This document shows positions 1-30,009 of a DNA stretch of 33,968 bases, piece after piece. Location of the stretch: the NCBI GenBank assembly GCA_027061855.1, contig JAMOVT010000042.1, positions 1-33,968 of the forward strand. The letters run 5' to 3'. Position 1 is the stretch's first letter. Each line of letters starts with the position of its first letter. The translations under genes and the position numbers were made by a program. The notes beneath the pieces were generated by a model. It worked only from the letters and a program-made list of their open reading frames with translations, searched no databases and was not told where the DNA came from. The stretch comes from Flavobacteriales bacterium (lineage in GTDB: Bacteria; Bacteroidota; Bacteroidia; Flavobacteriales; Flavobacteriaceae).

Positions 1-122
1 GGCAATCCAGATTTCACGATCGTATAATCCGAAATGAAAACGAATTGAATCGCATTCGTAAATATATAATATTAAATCCCCGAAGGTGGCAAAAAGACCG
101 CAATAATGATGAGGATTGGTAA
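1..122 (+). CDS. IS200-like / RAYT transposase, C-terminal end only
   Basis: Reading from base 3, an open frame runs in from outside the window and stops at TAA 120-122. The first two bases (gg) would complete a Trp codon if the preceding base is T. The visible tail has the pattern RFHDRIIRNENELNRIRKY followed by IILNP, then RRW and a short acidic end. This closely matches what I know of the C-terminus of REP-associated tyrosine transposases (Y1_Tnp/IS200-like, single-strand HUH-type enzymes), where a 'W-Q-x-x-F-x-D-H-x-I-R' segment and an 'I-x-x-N-P-x-x-W' segment end the protein. The catalytic HUH and Tyr residues lie outside the window, so activity cannot be judged. The palindromic repeats directly downstream fit the usual RAYT/REP association. 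The family call rests on about 39 residues by eye. Confidence 0.7.
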   Translation, partial: QSRFHDRIIRNENELNRIRKYIILNPRRWQKDRNNDEDW

Positions 123-135
123 ATGCGATTAATCT

Positions 136-198
136 GATTGTGGATACGCGATTGATGATTGTGGATACGCGATTGATGATTGTGGATACGCGATTAAT
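136..198. repeat. Three tandem 21-bp repeat units
   Basis: Three head-to-tail copies of a 21-base unit lie at 136-156, 157-177 and 178-198. Each begins GATTGTGGATACGCGATT. The first two are identical and the third differs by one base near its end (GAT to AAT). A degenerate copy of the core (TGCGATTAAT) precedes them around 124-133, just after the transposase stop codon. There are no spacers, so this is not a CRISPR. Confidence 0.9.
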
Positions 199-209
199 CG
201 CGTATCTAC
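182..209. repeat. REP-like palindrome closing the tandem array
   Basis: Bases 185-206 are a perfect 22-base palindrome with half-site GATACGCGATT. Through one G-T wobble pair it extends to 182-209. The third tandem unit forms its left arm, and the right arm is an inverted copy of the unit core, so the array ends head-to-head. In single-stranded form it would fold into a long hairpin, the kind of substrate RAYT transposases recognise. It could also act in transcription termination downstream of the transposase gene, but no T-run follows directly. Confidence 0.85.
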
Positions 210-275: not shown

Positions 276-3041
276 ATGTCCGATTTACAAAATACCGACC
301 AACAAAAACGCAAACGTTTATTTTTACTCGATGCCTACGCCTTAATTTTCAGGGCTTTTTATGCATTTATAAAAAATCCCCGCATCAATTCAAAAGGTTT
401 GGATACCTCGGCGACATTTGGGTTTCTCAACACTTTAATGGATTTGATTCGACGGGAAAACCCCGATCATTTGGCAGTGGTTTTTGATTTGGGCGGCTCC
501 AAGGAACGCAGTGAAATTTATGAACAATACAAAGCCAATCGCCTGGAAACTCCCGAAGGCATTCAGGTAGCGGTGCCTTATATCAAAAAGATTTTGGAGG
601 CGATGCATATTCCCATAATCGAACTCGAAGGCTGGGAAGCCGACGATTTGATAGGCACTTTGGCCAAACAAGCCGAGAAACAAGGCTATGATGTGTTTAT
701 GGTTACGGCCGATAAAGATTTTGCCCAATTGGTCGATGAACATATTTTCCTGTATAAGCCGTCGCGAATGGGCAACGGAATTGAAATTTGGGATGTGGAA
801 AAAGTCAAAGAAAAATTCGGAGTGGAACGCCCCGAACAAGTGATCGATTTTTTGGGAATGATGGGCGACAGCGTAGATAATATTCCCGGATTGCCCGGAG
901 TGGGAGAGAAGACCGCAAAAAAATTCCTGGCGGAATTTGGCAGTATGGAAAACCTTTTTGCCAATACCAATAGGCTCAAAGGAAAAATGAAAGAAAAGGT
1001 GGAAGCCAATAAAGAATTGGGCTTATTGTCAAAAAAATTGGCTACTATCAATACCCATGCACCCATTGAATTCGATGAAAAACAATTTGAATTGAACACC
1101 CCCGATTTTGAGAAAACCCAGGAGATTTTCAAAGAATTGGAATTCCGCCGTATTGCCGAGCAATTCAATCGTTTGTTTAGAAAACCCGGAGAAATAAATC
1201 AAGCGGAAACAAAAACTGTTTCCGGAAATAAACAGTACTCGTTGTTTGGAGAAGAAACCGGCGAAACCGCCGTAAATTCTTCCTTTTATACTTTTGAAAC
1301 CTGGGATAAATTTTATCAAGCACTGGAAACTCCGAAAGCCAAAGAGCTCTTGAAAGAAAAATTACTTCAAGCAAAAGAAGCGGCATTGAGCCACTACCCC
1401 GACCGTTTTGCCTTTGAACAAAGCAAGTACCATTTGGCTACGGCTATCAATCCGGGAAAAGTCTATCATTTTCCGCTCGAAAAAGAAATACAGCAAGAAT
1501 TATTCAGATTAAAAGAATTTGTATCCAATGAAGAAAAGGCCAAAACGGGTTATGATTTAAAAGAATTTTACAAACTATTGACATACAATAACTTGGATTT
1601 AAAAGGCGAGTTATATGATATCCTATTGATTCATTACTTGCTCAATCCCGAGATGCGTAACCAACTGGAAATTCTGGCCGAAAATTATTTGAATTTAAAA
1701 ATAGAAAAGCCGGGGAAAAAATCCACCGGAGAGGATTGGATCAATTATGCCGCCCTTAAAGCCGATGTGAGTTTGCGGCTAAAAGATGTGATGTTGGAAA
1801 AATTGTCTCAATCCGAGGCAAAAGATTTATACTTTAATTTGGAAATGCCTTTGATGAAGGTATTGGGTGATATGGAGCTTGCAGGGATTAAGCTCGATAT
1901 CAATGTTTTGAAAGAAATTGACGAGAAACTTCAAAAGGAAATTACCCGTTTGGAAAAAGAAATATTCGAATTGGCAGGAGAGGAATTCAATATCGGCTCC
2001 CCCAAACAATTGGGGTTGATTTTGTTTGAAAAAATGAAATTGGACAGCAAAGCAAAGAAAACCAAAACGGGACAATATTCCACTTCCGAAGAAGTTTTGA
2101 AAAAATATTTGGACAAACATGAAATCATCAAAAAAATACTGGATTGGCGCAGTTTGACCAAGCTCAAATCCACTTATATCGATTCTTTGCCCAAGCAAAT
2201 AAATCCGGTTACGGGGCGCATCCACACTCATTTCAATCAGGCGGTTACCTCTACGGGACGTTTGAGCTCTACCGATCCCAATTTGCAAAACATTCCCATA
2301 CGCACCAAATGGGGACAAGAAATCCGTAAAGCTTTTGTAGCCGAAAAAGGAAACAAGCTCATCTCCGCCGATTATTCACAAATCGAATTGCGGTTGATTG
2401 CCACTTTCAGTGGAGATGCCGAGATGCTCGAAGCCTTTAAAAAAGGAGAAGACATTCACCGGGCTACCGCCGCCAAGGTATTTGGCATTCCCATCGAAGA
2501 AGTTACCAAGGAACAACGTTCGCATGCCAAAAGCGTCAATTACGGGATTATTTACGGTTTGTCGGCACACGGATTGAGCCAGCAAACGGGATTGAGCCGC
2601 AGCGAGTCAAAAAAATTAATCGATACCTATTTTGAGACTTATCCCACCCTCAAAAAATACATTGCCGGTCAAGTAGATAAAGTTCGTGAAAAAGGTTATG
2701 CCGAAACGATTTTGGGACGTCGCCGGTATTTGCGTGATATCGATTCGCGGAATGCCATAGTGCGTGCCGCCGCCGAACGCAATGCCGTGAATGCCCCCTT
2801 ACAAGGAAGTGCCGCCGATATCATAAAAAAAGCCATGATTGAAATACAAGAAGAATTGAAAAAAGCTTTTCAAACCAAAATGTTATTGCAGGTGCACGAC
2901 GAATTGGTTTTTGAAGCTCCAAATGAAGAAGTGGAAAAGGTTACAGGCTTAATCAAAGAGAAAATGGAAAATGTGGTAAAACTGGATGTGCCGTTAACCG
3001 TGGATATCGGAATAGGGGAGAACTGGTATGAAGCGCATTGA
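276..3041 (+). CDS. polA: DNA polymerase I
   Basis: This 921-residue protein has the normal length and order of Pol I. An N-terminal 5'-nuclease domain (about 10-300) carries D19, the GWEADDLIG and TADKDF segments and the MGDSVDNIPG helix-hairpin-helix region. A middle region (about 320-520) sits where the 3'-5' exonuclease lies. The polymerase domain (about 540-921) has motif A DYSQIELR (D699), motif B RSHAKSVNYGIIYG and motif C VHDELVFE (H874, D875). It fills Okazaki-fragment and repair gaps and removes RNA primers. Two oddities: the exonuclease acidic residues are not recognisable (the usual DTET motif is replaced near 368-376), and the O-helix selectivity residue is Tyr756 rather than Phe. 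Arginine codons in the polymerase part are almost all CGN. It is probably monocistronic, starting at the TAATTTTG box. Confidence 0.97.
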   Translation: MSDLQNTDQQKRKRLFLLDAYALIFRAFYAFIKNPRINSKGLDTSATFGFLNTLMDLIRRENPDHLAVVFDLGGSKERSEIYEQYKANRLETPEGIQVAVPYIKKILEAMHIPIIELEGWEADDLIGTLAKQAEKQGYDVFMVTADKDFAQLVDEHIFLYKPSRMGNGIEIWDVEKVKEKFGVERPEQVIDFLGMMGDSVDNIPGLPGVGEKTAKKFLAEFGSMENLFANTNRLKGKMKEKVEANKELGLLSKKLATINTHAPIEFDEKQFELNTPDFEKTQEIFKELEFRRIAEQFNRLFRKPGEINQAETKTVSGNKQYSLFGEETGETAVNSSFYTFETWDKFYQALETPKAKELLKEKLLQAKEAALSHYPDRFAFEQSKYHLATAINPGKVYHFPLEKEIQQELFRLKEFVSNEEKAKTGYDLKEFYKLLTYNNLDLKGELYDILLIHYLLNPEMRNQLEILAENYLNLKIEKPGKKSTGEDWINYAALKADVSLRLKDVMLEKLSQSEAKDLYFNLEMPLMKVLGDMELAGIKLDINVLKEIDEKLQKEITRLEKEIFELAGEEFNIGSPKQLGLILFEKMKLDSKAKKTKTGQYSTSEEVLKKYLDKHEIIKKILDWRSLTKLKSTYIDSLPKQINPVTGRIHTHFNQAVTSTGRLSSTDPNLQNIPIRTKWGQEIRKAFVAEKGNKLISADYSQIELRLIATFSGDAEMLEAFKKGEDIHRATAAKVFGIPIEEVTKEQRSHAKSVNYGIIYGLSAHGLSQQTGLSRSESKKLIDTYFETYPTLKKYIAGQVDKVREKGYAETILGRRRYLRDIDSRNAIVRAAAERNAVNAPLQGSAADIIKKAMIEIQEELKKAFQTKMLLQVHDELVFEAPNEEVEKVTGLIKEKMENVVKLDVPLTVDIGIGENWYEAH

Positions 3042-14980: not shown

Positions 14981-16243
14981 TTACTTGTTCACTTCTACTG
15001 CTTCACCGTTTTTTAAACGTTTACTGAGTAGATTATAAGGACCTGTAATGATTTCATCTCCTTCATTCAGTCCTTTTTTAATTTCTATATTCGTATCATC
15101 TTGAATTCCTGTTTCCACTACTTTTATTTTGGCTTTCCCGTTTTCAACAACAAAAACGACTTCAAAAGGTTTGGCATTTTCGTCCTTTTTTTTGTTTGTT
15201 TTCTTGTGTTTAGACGCCACAGCCGCAGTATCTTTTCTTATGGTTACAGCACTGATTGGTACACCGATTACATCCCGTTTTACATTGGTAATAATATCAA
15301 CCGCTGCAGTCATTCCAGGGCGGAAAGGTGAATAATATGCAGGCTTATCTTTCATCAAGTGCTTGTAAGAATCTTCCAATAATCGTATTTTCACTTTGAA
15401 ATTGGTAATTTCATCTCCACTAGACAATTTATTTTGGGCAGAGTTGGCAATTTCCGTAATGACACCTTTGAATTTATCATTCATATAGGCATCGACTTCT
15501 ACATTAGCAGAGTCTCCCACCTTTATTTTTACTATATCATTTTCATTGATATCCACTACAGCTTCCATATTATTGAGATTGGCAATACGCATAATTTCCG
15601 TTCCGGTCATTTGCTTTGTTCCCACAACTCGTTCTCCGGTTTCTACATTCAGAGCTGAAATGGTTCCCGATATTGGTGAATAAATAGTGGTGCGTTGTAA
15701 ATTGTCTTTAGCTTCTTTGAGGTTAGCATAGGCACTTTGCAAAGAATATTTGGCCGAATTATAAGTAGCTTGTGCCACTTTGTAGTTGGTTTCCGCTTTT
15801 TGATAATCGGCTTTGGAGATAATTCCTTTTTCATATAATTGTTTGCTACGCTTAAATTCTTCATCGGCAGAGACCAACCGGGCTTTGGCTTGTTCCAAAC
15901 TCGCCTTGGCATTATTTACGGAAGCTTTGGCGCGTTCTAATCCCGATTGATATAGGTCGGGGTTTATTTTTACCAATAGATCTCCTTTTTTTACCTGTTG
16001 ACCTTCTTTTACCGGAAGTTCGATAATTTCTCCGGACACATCCGATGAAATTTTTACTTCTTTCTCGGGTTGTATTTTACCGGAACCGGTCACTGTTTCG
16101 ATTATATCCACCCGTTTTACTTTTTCGGTAAATACTTTTTTGGCATTTCCTTTTTGTCCGAACCATCCTTTGGCAGCTCCGAAACTAACAATTATAAGCA
16201 AAAGGACGCCTATGATTACAGTATATTTTAATGTTTTGTTCAT
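14981..16243 (-). CDS. HlyD/MacA-type periplasmic adaptor of an efflux pump
   Basis: A 420-residue membrane-fusion protein. There is one N-terminal membrane anchor (about 8-27), a first half-lipoyl strand set (SDVSGEIIELPVKEGQQVKKGD), a coiled-coil hairpin (about 100-190, rich in Ala, Lys and Gln), a second half-lipoyl motif (IYSPISGTISALNVETGERV), then beta-barrel and membrane-proximal domains. A charged insert KHKKTNKKKDENAK (about 345-360) interrupts the C-terminal part. Adaptors like this link an inner-membrane ABC or RND pump to a TolC channel. The TolC-like gene lies 6 bases upstream, but no ABC (MacB-type) subunit follows: a terminator ends the unit. Confidence 0.92.
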   Translation of the reverse strand: MNKTLKYTVIIGVLLLIIVSFGAAKGWFGQKGNAKKVFTEKVKRVDIIETVTGSGKIQPEKEVKISSDVSGEIIELPVKEGQQVKKGDLLVKINPDLYQSGLERAKASVNNAKASLEQAKARLVSADEEFKRSKQLYEKGIISKADYQKAETNYKVAQATYNSAKYSLQSAYANLKEAKDNLQRTTIYSPISGTISALNVETGERVVGTKQMTGTEIMRIANLNNMEAVVDINENDIVKIKVGDSANVEVDAYMNDKFKGVITEIANSAQNKLSSGDEITNFKVKIRLLEDSYKHLMKDKPAYYSPFRPGMTAAVDIITNVKRDVIGVPISAVTIRKDTAAVASKHKKTNKKKDENAKPFEVVFVVENGKAKIKVVETGIQDDTNIEIKKGLNEGDEIITGPYNLLSKRLKNGEAVEVNK

Positions 16244-28872: not shown

Positions 28873-30009
28873 TCAAGGCAATAAAATGGAATAGTAGTGA
28901 AAATGATAGTCTGGTGTTTCTTCGGGATAGAAAATATGATATAAATCTCGAAGCACTTTATCCGGGCGTGCGGCAGATTCTTCAAAATAAATTAATCCGC
29001 CGTTTTTTCCTTTCATTAAGGCATAGGTATATATTTGATCCTTGCGGTAACTTTTCATTTTTATTACTTCGGGAAAAGCTTGTTTTAGAGCGGTTTTTGA
29101 TAAGATGCTCCCGGGATTTAACCATATATCTGCTTGTGGTAATTTTATCAACACATTTTCATAACTGACGGGAATGCTCCCATTATGCGTATCTTCTTCC
29201 CAAATATATCTTCCACCGGCATCTTTTATCAATTGTACGGCATAACTTTTTCCTCCCGGCACATACCATTTTCCGGCAAAAAATCCTCCCTGAAAAACAA
29301 GGGGTTTTTCTTTTATGGATTGTATTTTTTCTTTTATAAGATTATAATTTTCGGCAATTTCATCAAATTTTTGTTGTGCTTTTTTCTCTTTTCCGAATAA
29401 TACTCCGAACAATTTAATCCATTCGGCACGTCCCAAAGGAGAACTTTCCATCCAGTCGGCGTTATAAAGTACGGGAATTCCGTGTTTTTCGAAAAACTCG
29501 TATTGTTTTTGGTCTCTTCCACTGGAAAAAGCGACAATCACATCGGGTTTGAGCAATAAAGTTTCTTCTGTATTTAATCCGGCTCCGTTCCCAATTTCTT
29601 TGATTTGATTTTTTCGCAGCTTTTCCATAAATGTATCTGAGGAGATATATTTGGTATTCGGAAAACCTTTTAATTTATCTTCTTCTCCCAAAAGGGAAAG
29701 AGCGGGAAGGTGTGTAGTAGAGGTAACCACCAGATTGTTCACCGGCACTTGTATAAACGGATATTGTTTTAAAGAATCGGGGAGTTTTTTTTTGTTTTTT
29801 CCCGCAACATATTTATAATTTCCGGCTTTTGCCCAAGGTTCCATTACTTCAATAATGGTATAATCCCCGGCTTTATCCAACTTTAAATGAGAAGCATATT
29901 CTATTCCGTTGCTTTTGCCGGTTACAGCCTCCCGGGTGGAATTTTTACAAGAAAATAAAAAAATAAAAATCAAAAAAACGGTACCAAATAATATTTTCCA
30001 TTTTTTCAT
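28873..30009 (-). CDS. ABC transporter substrate-binding lipoprotein (FecB/BtuF-like)
   Basis: A 378-residue lipoprotein (hydrophobic 6-18, lipobox LFSC, Cys21) with a type III periplasmic binding fold. Segments seen: VVTSTTHLPALSLLGEEDKLKGFPN, NTEETLLLKPDVIVAFSSG, GIPVLYNADWMESSPLGRAEWIKLFGVLFG, YVPGGKSYAVQLIKDAGGRYIW and LPQADIWLNPG. These match Peripla_BP_2 proteins that bind iron-siderophores, haem or cobalamin. No permease or ATPase is adjacent; instead it follows def by 7 bases. It probably works with transporter parts encoded elsewhere. The ligand cannot be assigned. Confidence 0.88.
   Translation of the reverse strand: MKKWKILFGTVFLIFIFLFSCKNSTREAVTGKSNGIEYASHLKLDKAGDYTIIEVMEPWAKAGNYKYVAGKNKKKLPDSLKQYPFIQVPVNNLVVTSTTHLPALSLLGEEDKLKGFPNTKYISSDTFMEKLRKNQIKEIGNGAGLNTEETLLLKPDVIVAFSSGRDQKQYEFFEKHGIPVLYNADWMESSPLGRAEWIKLFGVLFGKEKKAQQKFDEIAENYNLIKEKIQSIKEKPLVFQGGFFAGKWYVPGGKSYAVQLIKDAGGRYIWEEDTHNGSIPVSYENVLIKLPQADIWLNPGSILSKTALKQAFPEVIKMKSYRKDQIYTYALMKGKNGGLIYFEESAARPDKVLRDLYHIFYPEETPDYHFHYYSILLP

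Follow-up and report, generated by a model that had tools for sequence, protein, structure and literature searches.

The window analysed here is a whole contig of 33,968 nucleotides from a Flavobacteriales bacterium, and it starts inside a RAYT gene. The features at this end of the window, in the numbering of its forward strand, are:

3-122, plus strand: C-terminal 39 codons and stop codon of a gene for a RAYT (TnpA-REP), truncated at the contig start
124-134, plus strand: degenerate core TGCGATTAATC, read directly
135-155, plus strand: tandem unit 1, consisting of a spacer, the foot GTGG and the left half of the REP
156-176, plus strand: tandem unit 2, with the same sequence as unit 1
177-197, plus strand: tandem unit 3, 95% identical, leading into the full palindrome
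182-209, no strand assigned: double-foot REP GTGG-ATACGCGATTAATCGCGTAT-CTAC, 28 bp, full form GTGGATACGCGATTAATCGCGTATCTAC
185-206, no strand assigned: perfect 22-bp palindrome GATACGCGATTAATCGCGTATC, within the REP
276-3041, plus strand: neighbouring gene for DNA polymerase I (polA; Pfam DNA_pol_A, E 9.7e-167), context outside the element

Because the contig begins within the gene, the RAYT is represented by a 39-residue piece only; nucleotides 3-119 translate to QSRFHDRIIRNENELNRIRKYIILNPRRWQKDRNNDEDW, and the stop codon occupies 120-122. This piece scored 25.4 bits (E 1.1e-5) against the NCBIfam model NF047646 (REP_Tyr_transpos), whose cut-off is 80, a shortfall that is expected for a fragment; a Pfam search with the same 39 residues gave no match. 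By tblastn the piece is 64% identical over 33 residues to the RAYT of locus L028/L160 (E 5.8e-10), and in the set of sequences used for the tree below it is nearest to L160 (19 of 26 residues), then to L186 and L162 (18 each). The best match, L028/L160, is a carrier of the palindrome core; the lower ranking is mixed and includes L186 and, in tblastn, L172, both without a GCG-ATTAAT core. The fragment retains the Q of the WQ motif and has a Y motif of YIILNP, compared with the listed YIxNNP; the HUH motif falls outside the contig, as the gene is cut by the contig end, and so does the part in which RAYT genes of subclass 2.4 can have an in-frame REP. The adjacency of RAYT and polA was considered as a conserved arrangement and ruled out: in a survey in which 53 relatives matched and 29 polA loci were fetched, none of the 29 had a RAYT in the fetched flanks. 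From two genus-mates with fragmented assemblies (G461 and G462) the DNA search with the polA part of the window returned nothing, unlike most of the other genera searched, which do match it.

Within positions 124-209, three 21-bp units follow a degenerate core and run into a perfect 22-bp palindrome, an anatomy that the original prediction had described and that is borne out by direct reading and by Tandem Repeats Finder (135-195, period 21, 2.9 copies, 100% matches). The prediction had also placed the array directly downstream of a transposase. The array does begin 1 nt past the RAYT stop codon, and so lies within the 1000 nt of the gene that characterize such REPs, although the transposase itself is the 39-residue C-terminal piece. 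The degenerate core at 124-134 is probably what is left of an older copy of the REP. As set out in the text excerpt of Quentin et al. (2018; PMC6006769), the double-foot REP of subclass 2.4 carries the feet GT[AG]G and C[TC]AC at its two ends, with a long hairpin between them. The window has both: GTGG at 182-185 as the first foot, at the hairpin base, and CTAC at 206-209 as the second, at the opposite end. Since these feet belong to the element, the full element is probably the 28-mer at 182-209 and not the 22-bp palindrome alone. A script search found this to be the sole double-foot palindrome in the window.

An 18-base core, searched with up to 3 mismatches, matched nothing in the window except the two strands of the 185-206 palindrome, in agreement with the earlier remark that no other copy had been noticed here; shuffled sequence gave 0.01 matches on average. 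The predicted fold of the array is better than that of each of 200 dinucleotide shuffles, both as DNA (z -4.3) and as RNA (z -5.3). It is very unlikely that the core and the fold arose by chance. Two weak tandem repeats elsewhere in the window (15967-16010 and 29305-29351), within long ORFs, also have a period of 21. The contig start, which truncates the RAYT, is 124-209 bases away from the array, and an assembly artefact at this contig end might have inflated the number of units or misjoined the RAYT. We consider this highly improbable, as in other assemblies (L007, L013 and L028/L160) a RAYT stop codon is also followed closely by a palindrome, and the tandem copies in the window are not all alike.

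The source genome comprises 2.04 Mb in 117 contigs, of which the window is G000:C42. With up to 3 mismatches allowed, the REP was found in two convincing places, the window and G000:C113:12764; a third match, on contig C44 with 3 mismatches, does not stand out from the reversed control, which itself gave one match. The second copy sits between ORFs, with no ORF of at least 60 aa over it, and both copies are outside the listed gene-sized ORFs; the element is thus extragenic and repeated in its own genome. The core is therefore not unique there, a point on which the original prediction depended, but a large repeat family in this genome is not supported, the number of copies being 2. Classical REPs usually exceed 100 copies per genome according to the text excerpt of PMC2817692; the present element does not reach such numbers, with 2 copies in 2.04 Mb and a maximum of 53 in 13 related genomes.

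A scan of a genome collection recovered the exact 22-mer in 15 other stretches from 13 genomes. The titles of 14 of these name taxa that we take, from the names, to belong to the phylum Bacteroidota, and the remaining title reads only 'bacterium'. Frequent forms of the palindrome elsewhere are GTAGATACGCGATTAATCGCGTATCTAC and GTAGAGACGCGATTAATCGCGTCTCTAC. A 15-mer core with at most one mismatch has between 1 and 53 forward matches per genome in the 13 genomes, compared with 0 or 1 for its reversed control; the four richest genomes have 53, 31, 29 and 18 matches, and the control has none in any of them. In the repeat-rich genomes G446, G447 and G438 the element is mostly extragenic, as the prediction had proposed to check: 49 of 52 sites in 49 regions (a count that leaves out eight more G446 regions, L092-L099) lie outside ORFs of at least 100 aa, whereas 70-85% of random positions fall inside such an ORF. 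In one further genome, G439 (part of L120-L139), many cores are embedded in a larger, MITE-like repeat with CCCTTATT or AATAAGGG flanks. A search of 149 genomes at the family level found the 22-mer pattern in the source genome alone, and a scan of viral contigs returned no stretches.

The palindrome is repeatedly associated with RAYT sequence in these relatives. The palindrome lies beside or inside RAYT sequence in 4 of the 15 stretches (L007, L013, L014, where the match is partial, and L016), and the phylum search added L024 and L028. Among these carriers of the core is Flavobacterium sp. SH_e (L007/L022). For subclass 2.4 the excerpt of PMC6006769 lists the motifs NH[IFV]H, WQ and YIxNNP. 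Five aligned RAYTs of relatives have NH[VIF]H, WQ and YIxNNP together with a variable loop; L024 reads YIIANP, and all three motifs are intact in four of the five. In four of these five (L024, L028, L022 and L013) the palindrome is translated within the transposase loop, with products such as VETRLIASL, ADTRLIAYL and RRDAINRVS. A strict double-foot palindrome is located between the HUH motif and the first in-frame stop at 14 of 30 RAYT loci, three of which are members of the search profile; L175 gave no HUH match and hence has no row in this set. The 14 in-gene palindromes are 28-29 bp long and their cores differ; at three of these loci (L168, L173 and L189) the stop precedes the Y motif. A further in-gene palindrome, at L161, was missed by the strict search, its left foot reading GCAG. 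Overall we counted 22 double-foot palindromes in 107,592 bases, compared with 0.1 in mononucleotide shuffles.

At the level of the phylum, a profile search found a subclass-2.4-like RAYT (E up to 1e-10) in 125 of 296 genomes, and the 16-mer core is present in 6 of the 296, the source genome included. The source genome itself scores 0 in the profile search, the window fragment being too short. All five of the other core genomes have a subclass-2.4-like RAYT, compared with 125 of 296 overall (P about 0.013, in a test that is not independent, as the profile itself includes rows from three of the five). The independently chosen Pfam family PF01797 showed no enrichment, being present in 4 of the 6 core genomes and in 209 of all 296. 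Its presence or absence is uninformative because Y1 transposases are common and PF01797 scores subclass 2.4 weakly, missing one of three RAYTs. On the question raised by the prediction, of whether the core is equally frequent in genomes free of RAYTs, the non-independent profile (5 of 5) points in its favor and PF01797 does not.

To relate the cores to RAYT lineages we used a tree built without the loop from 28 of 33 sequences (L164, L168, L173, L175 and L189 were dropped). On this tree the six RAYTs with a GCG-ATTAAT core, all of which were first found through the core and so form a non-random sample, require 2 label changes, a number as low as in none of 500 shuffles. A branch with values of 100/97 holds 20 of the 22 other sequences. 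Only 6% of bootstrap trees unite the six, and L186, with no core detected, is placed among them; L187, which has a related TCG-ATTAAT-CGA core and was scored as 'other', stands alone on a long branch. On the tree, then, carriers of the GCG-ATTAAT core cluster without being a clean clade. Together with the RAYT neighbors and the in-gene palindromes, this clustering supports the original proposal of a REP-type element tied to a RAYT.

These observations also bear on a simpler account of the array, as an ordinary slippage-generated tandem repeat at a hairpin terminator or mRNA 3' stabilizer of the transposase gene, in which the RAYT itself plays no part. The tandem structure, the strong RNA fold where the gene ends and the cases of REPs within terminators in another genus, described below, are all compatible with it. 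It leaves unexplained, however, the phylum-wide occurrence of the 28-mer, its position beside or inside RAYTs and the clustering of cores by RAYT lineage. No terminator-like site was detected at the array, in a scan that requires a loop of 3-8 bases and a run of T immediately behind the stem and so weighs little. We judge this account to be quite unlikely.

A REPtron is a RAYT gene together with its cognate palindromic substrate. We propose, with a probability of about 0.85, that the feature is a double-foot REP of TnpA-REP subclass 2.4, flanking the RAYT gene of a REPtron on the 3' side, and that a decayed core and two truncated copies of its left half come before it. Within this reading, the anatomy of the array, its RAYT neighbor, its recurrence across Bacteroidota, its mostly extragenic placement in repeat-rich genomes and the clustering of this core type on the RAYT tree are directly shown. 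The REP would consist of a GTRG foot, the hairpin ATACGCGATTAATCGCGTAT and the reverse-complement foot CTAC. In a single-stranded state, for example on the lagging-strand template, the palindrome would fold into a hairpin, whose GTRG foot and stem the HUH/Tyr enzyme may recognize, nick and rejoin; by this route, we infer, copies could have spread over time to intergenic sites. The 21-bp half-units would be duplications that end at the center of the palindrome; their most plausible origin is slippage of strands at the hairpin, or strand transfer that the RAYT misdirected from one foot to another.

Half-units are seen beside other copies as well. An extra foot-plus-arm match occurs within 120 bp of 13 of 100 sites (11 distinct loci, seven of them in G438), and there are 18 such matches in 200 near windows, compared with 13 in up to 600 control windows farther away. 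Some of the near matches (at L063, L102, L110 and part of L013) are a second palindrome and not a half-unit. L016 contains a clear array of 45-bp units. The recurrence of half-units makes tandem duplication a plausible mode of expansion. At L102, in another genome, two full cores lie 30 bp apart and are joined by TTGATGATTGTAG. The units of the window share this junction (TTGATGATTGTGG / TTGATGATTGTRG), which is absent from every other fetched locus. Because the junction recurs at L102 between two cores, a doublet origin is suggested for the window array, in which the middle of the doublet would have been lost and its left half then duplicated.

In a REPIN, two inverted REPs flank a spacer. 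The junction shared exclusively with the L102 doublet is what would be expected if the array were a REPIN or BIME, two inverted REPs and a spacer, that has been partly deleted here, and the excerpt of Quentin et al. (2018; PMC6006769) names the central deletion of an inverted dimer as a possible source of double-foot REPs. Against this, the window has one complete palindrome, and its remaining copies are half-units in the same direction, which makes such an origin unlikely. The original reading as a REP/REPIN therefore stands insofar as the element is of RAYT-linked REP type, but with one complete palindrome it is not a REPIN in the strict sense.

Beyond the feet, some copies in relatives carry additional inverted arms that are specific to their locus. 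A perfect inverted flank of at least 5 bp outside the feet is present at 14 of 96 sites, compared with 0.5% when flanks are randomly re-paired (largest of 5000 permutations, 4.3%); 12 of an initial 108 sites had been removed by a text filter as parts of larger repeats, and those in opposite orientation that the filter missed had runs of 0. Ten sites have at least 7 bp, four of them from one genus, that of G448. Of eight sites shown from this genus, six have inverted runs between 8 and 17 bp long; the 96-site count had already included four of the eight, and a ninth locus, L193, gave no core. The stem itself shows a related pattern: of 51 sites at which the seven bases adjacent to the core depart from the consensus, 15 still pair 7 of 7, compared with 2.3 by shuffling (largest 7), and five of these 15 fully paired sites keep the GTAG foot. 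At G446 sites such as L064, L065, L073 and L074 an altered foot, GTAA, GTAT or GCAG, stays fully paired, as if palindromy outweighed foot sequence. The arms are a property of relatives and are not evident in the window copy, where the strict outer run is 0 and the flanks, beyond an imperfect foot pair, pair only as ATTG/CAAT with one base skipped.

At the L196 locus, between convergent genes, L200, L202 and L203 read by eye as plain intrinsic terminators, and the sister genomes G441 and G448 (L196/L199) hold a double-foot REP in the terminator-like loop with similar arms; the orthologs were compared by eye, leaving out the mapped L201, L204 and L205. At L191/L213, an orthologous decayed REP has 16-bp perfect arms in G448 and none in G455, as if the arms had grown after insertion. 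At L038/L141, a 60-bp perfect palindrome follows a stop codon in G448, and G441 and G455 are without both REP and arms, with a RAYT just downstream in G441. One general cause of the arms that we considered is that the REP inserted into a terminator already present; this fits L196 but neither L191 nor L038. As these two loci, and several arms that by eye have no terminator polarity, are unlike L196, we claim no single cause.

Template switching is described as making and mending hairpins in the text excerpt of PMC8794818. We tentatively raise the possibility, itself doubtful, that the REP acts as a seed of self-templated hairpin growth: copies might settle in hairpin loops, including those of terminators, after which template switching would perfect or extend the arms with locus-specific sequence, keep the stem paired through double changes and throw off tandem half-units. 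A search of titles and the beginnings of abstracts in the open-access literature returned nothing on REP insertion into terminator loops, which is a weak negative.

For Bacteroidota the locus supplies a concrete pair of RAYT and REP, whose candidate substrate, at 28 bp, is small enough to be tested directly for nicking. How REP palindromes choose their sites and remain perfect is, to our knowledge, unsettled for REPs generally; the REPs in terminator-like loops, the locus-specific perfect arms and the paired stem changes make both site choice and upkeep testable.

Comparison with known systems places the element as follows. Like the REPINs of Bertels and Rainey (2011) it is a RAYT-linked palindromic short repeat, but where a REPIN is an inverted REP pair with a spacer, the window has one complete palindrome and same-direction half-units. 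The Rickettsia palindromic elements mentioned in the text excerpt of PMC3733652 are in-frame palindromes inside genes, as in the RAYTs of our relatives; their host differs, and the likeness is one of description. The GTAG-tagged REPs and REPtrons of the same paper (Di Nocera et al., 2013) share with our element a palindrome, a GTAG-like tail and a position near a RAYT, and the excerpt describes both tandem reiteration in REP clusters and REPs inside genes. Those REPs are high-copy, in contrast to the 2 copies in 2.04 Mb found here, and the main text mentions Bacteroidetes once, for CGTC repeats. The excerpt of PMC6006769 already describes double-foot REPs, as well as REPs that lie within genes of subclass 2.4, and Bacteroidetes are among the hosts it names. 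Compared with that double-foot REP by definition and not by core sequence, the window has the same feet, long hairpin and tnpA-REP adjacency, and adds two tandem half-copies before the full palindrome. The REP of the window is a real and mostly ordinary member of a known family.
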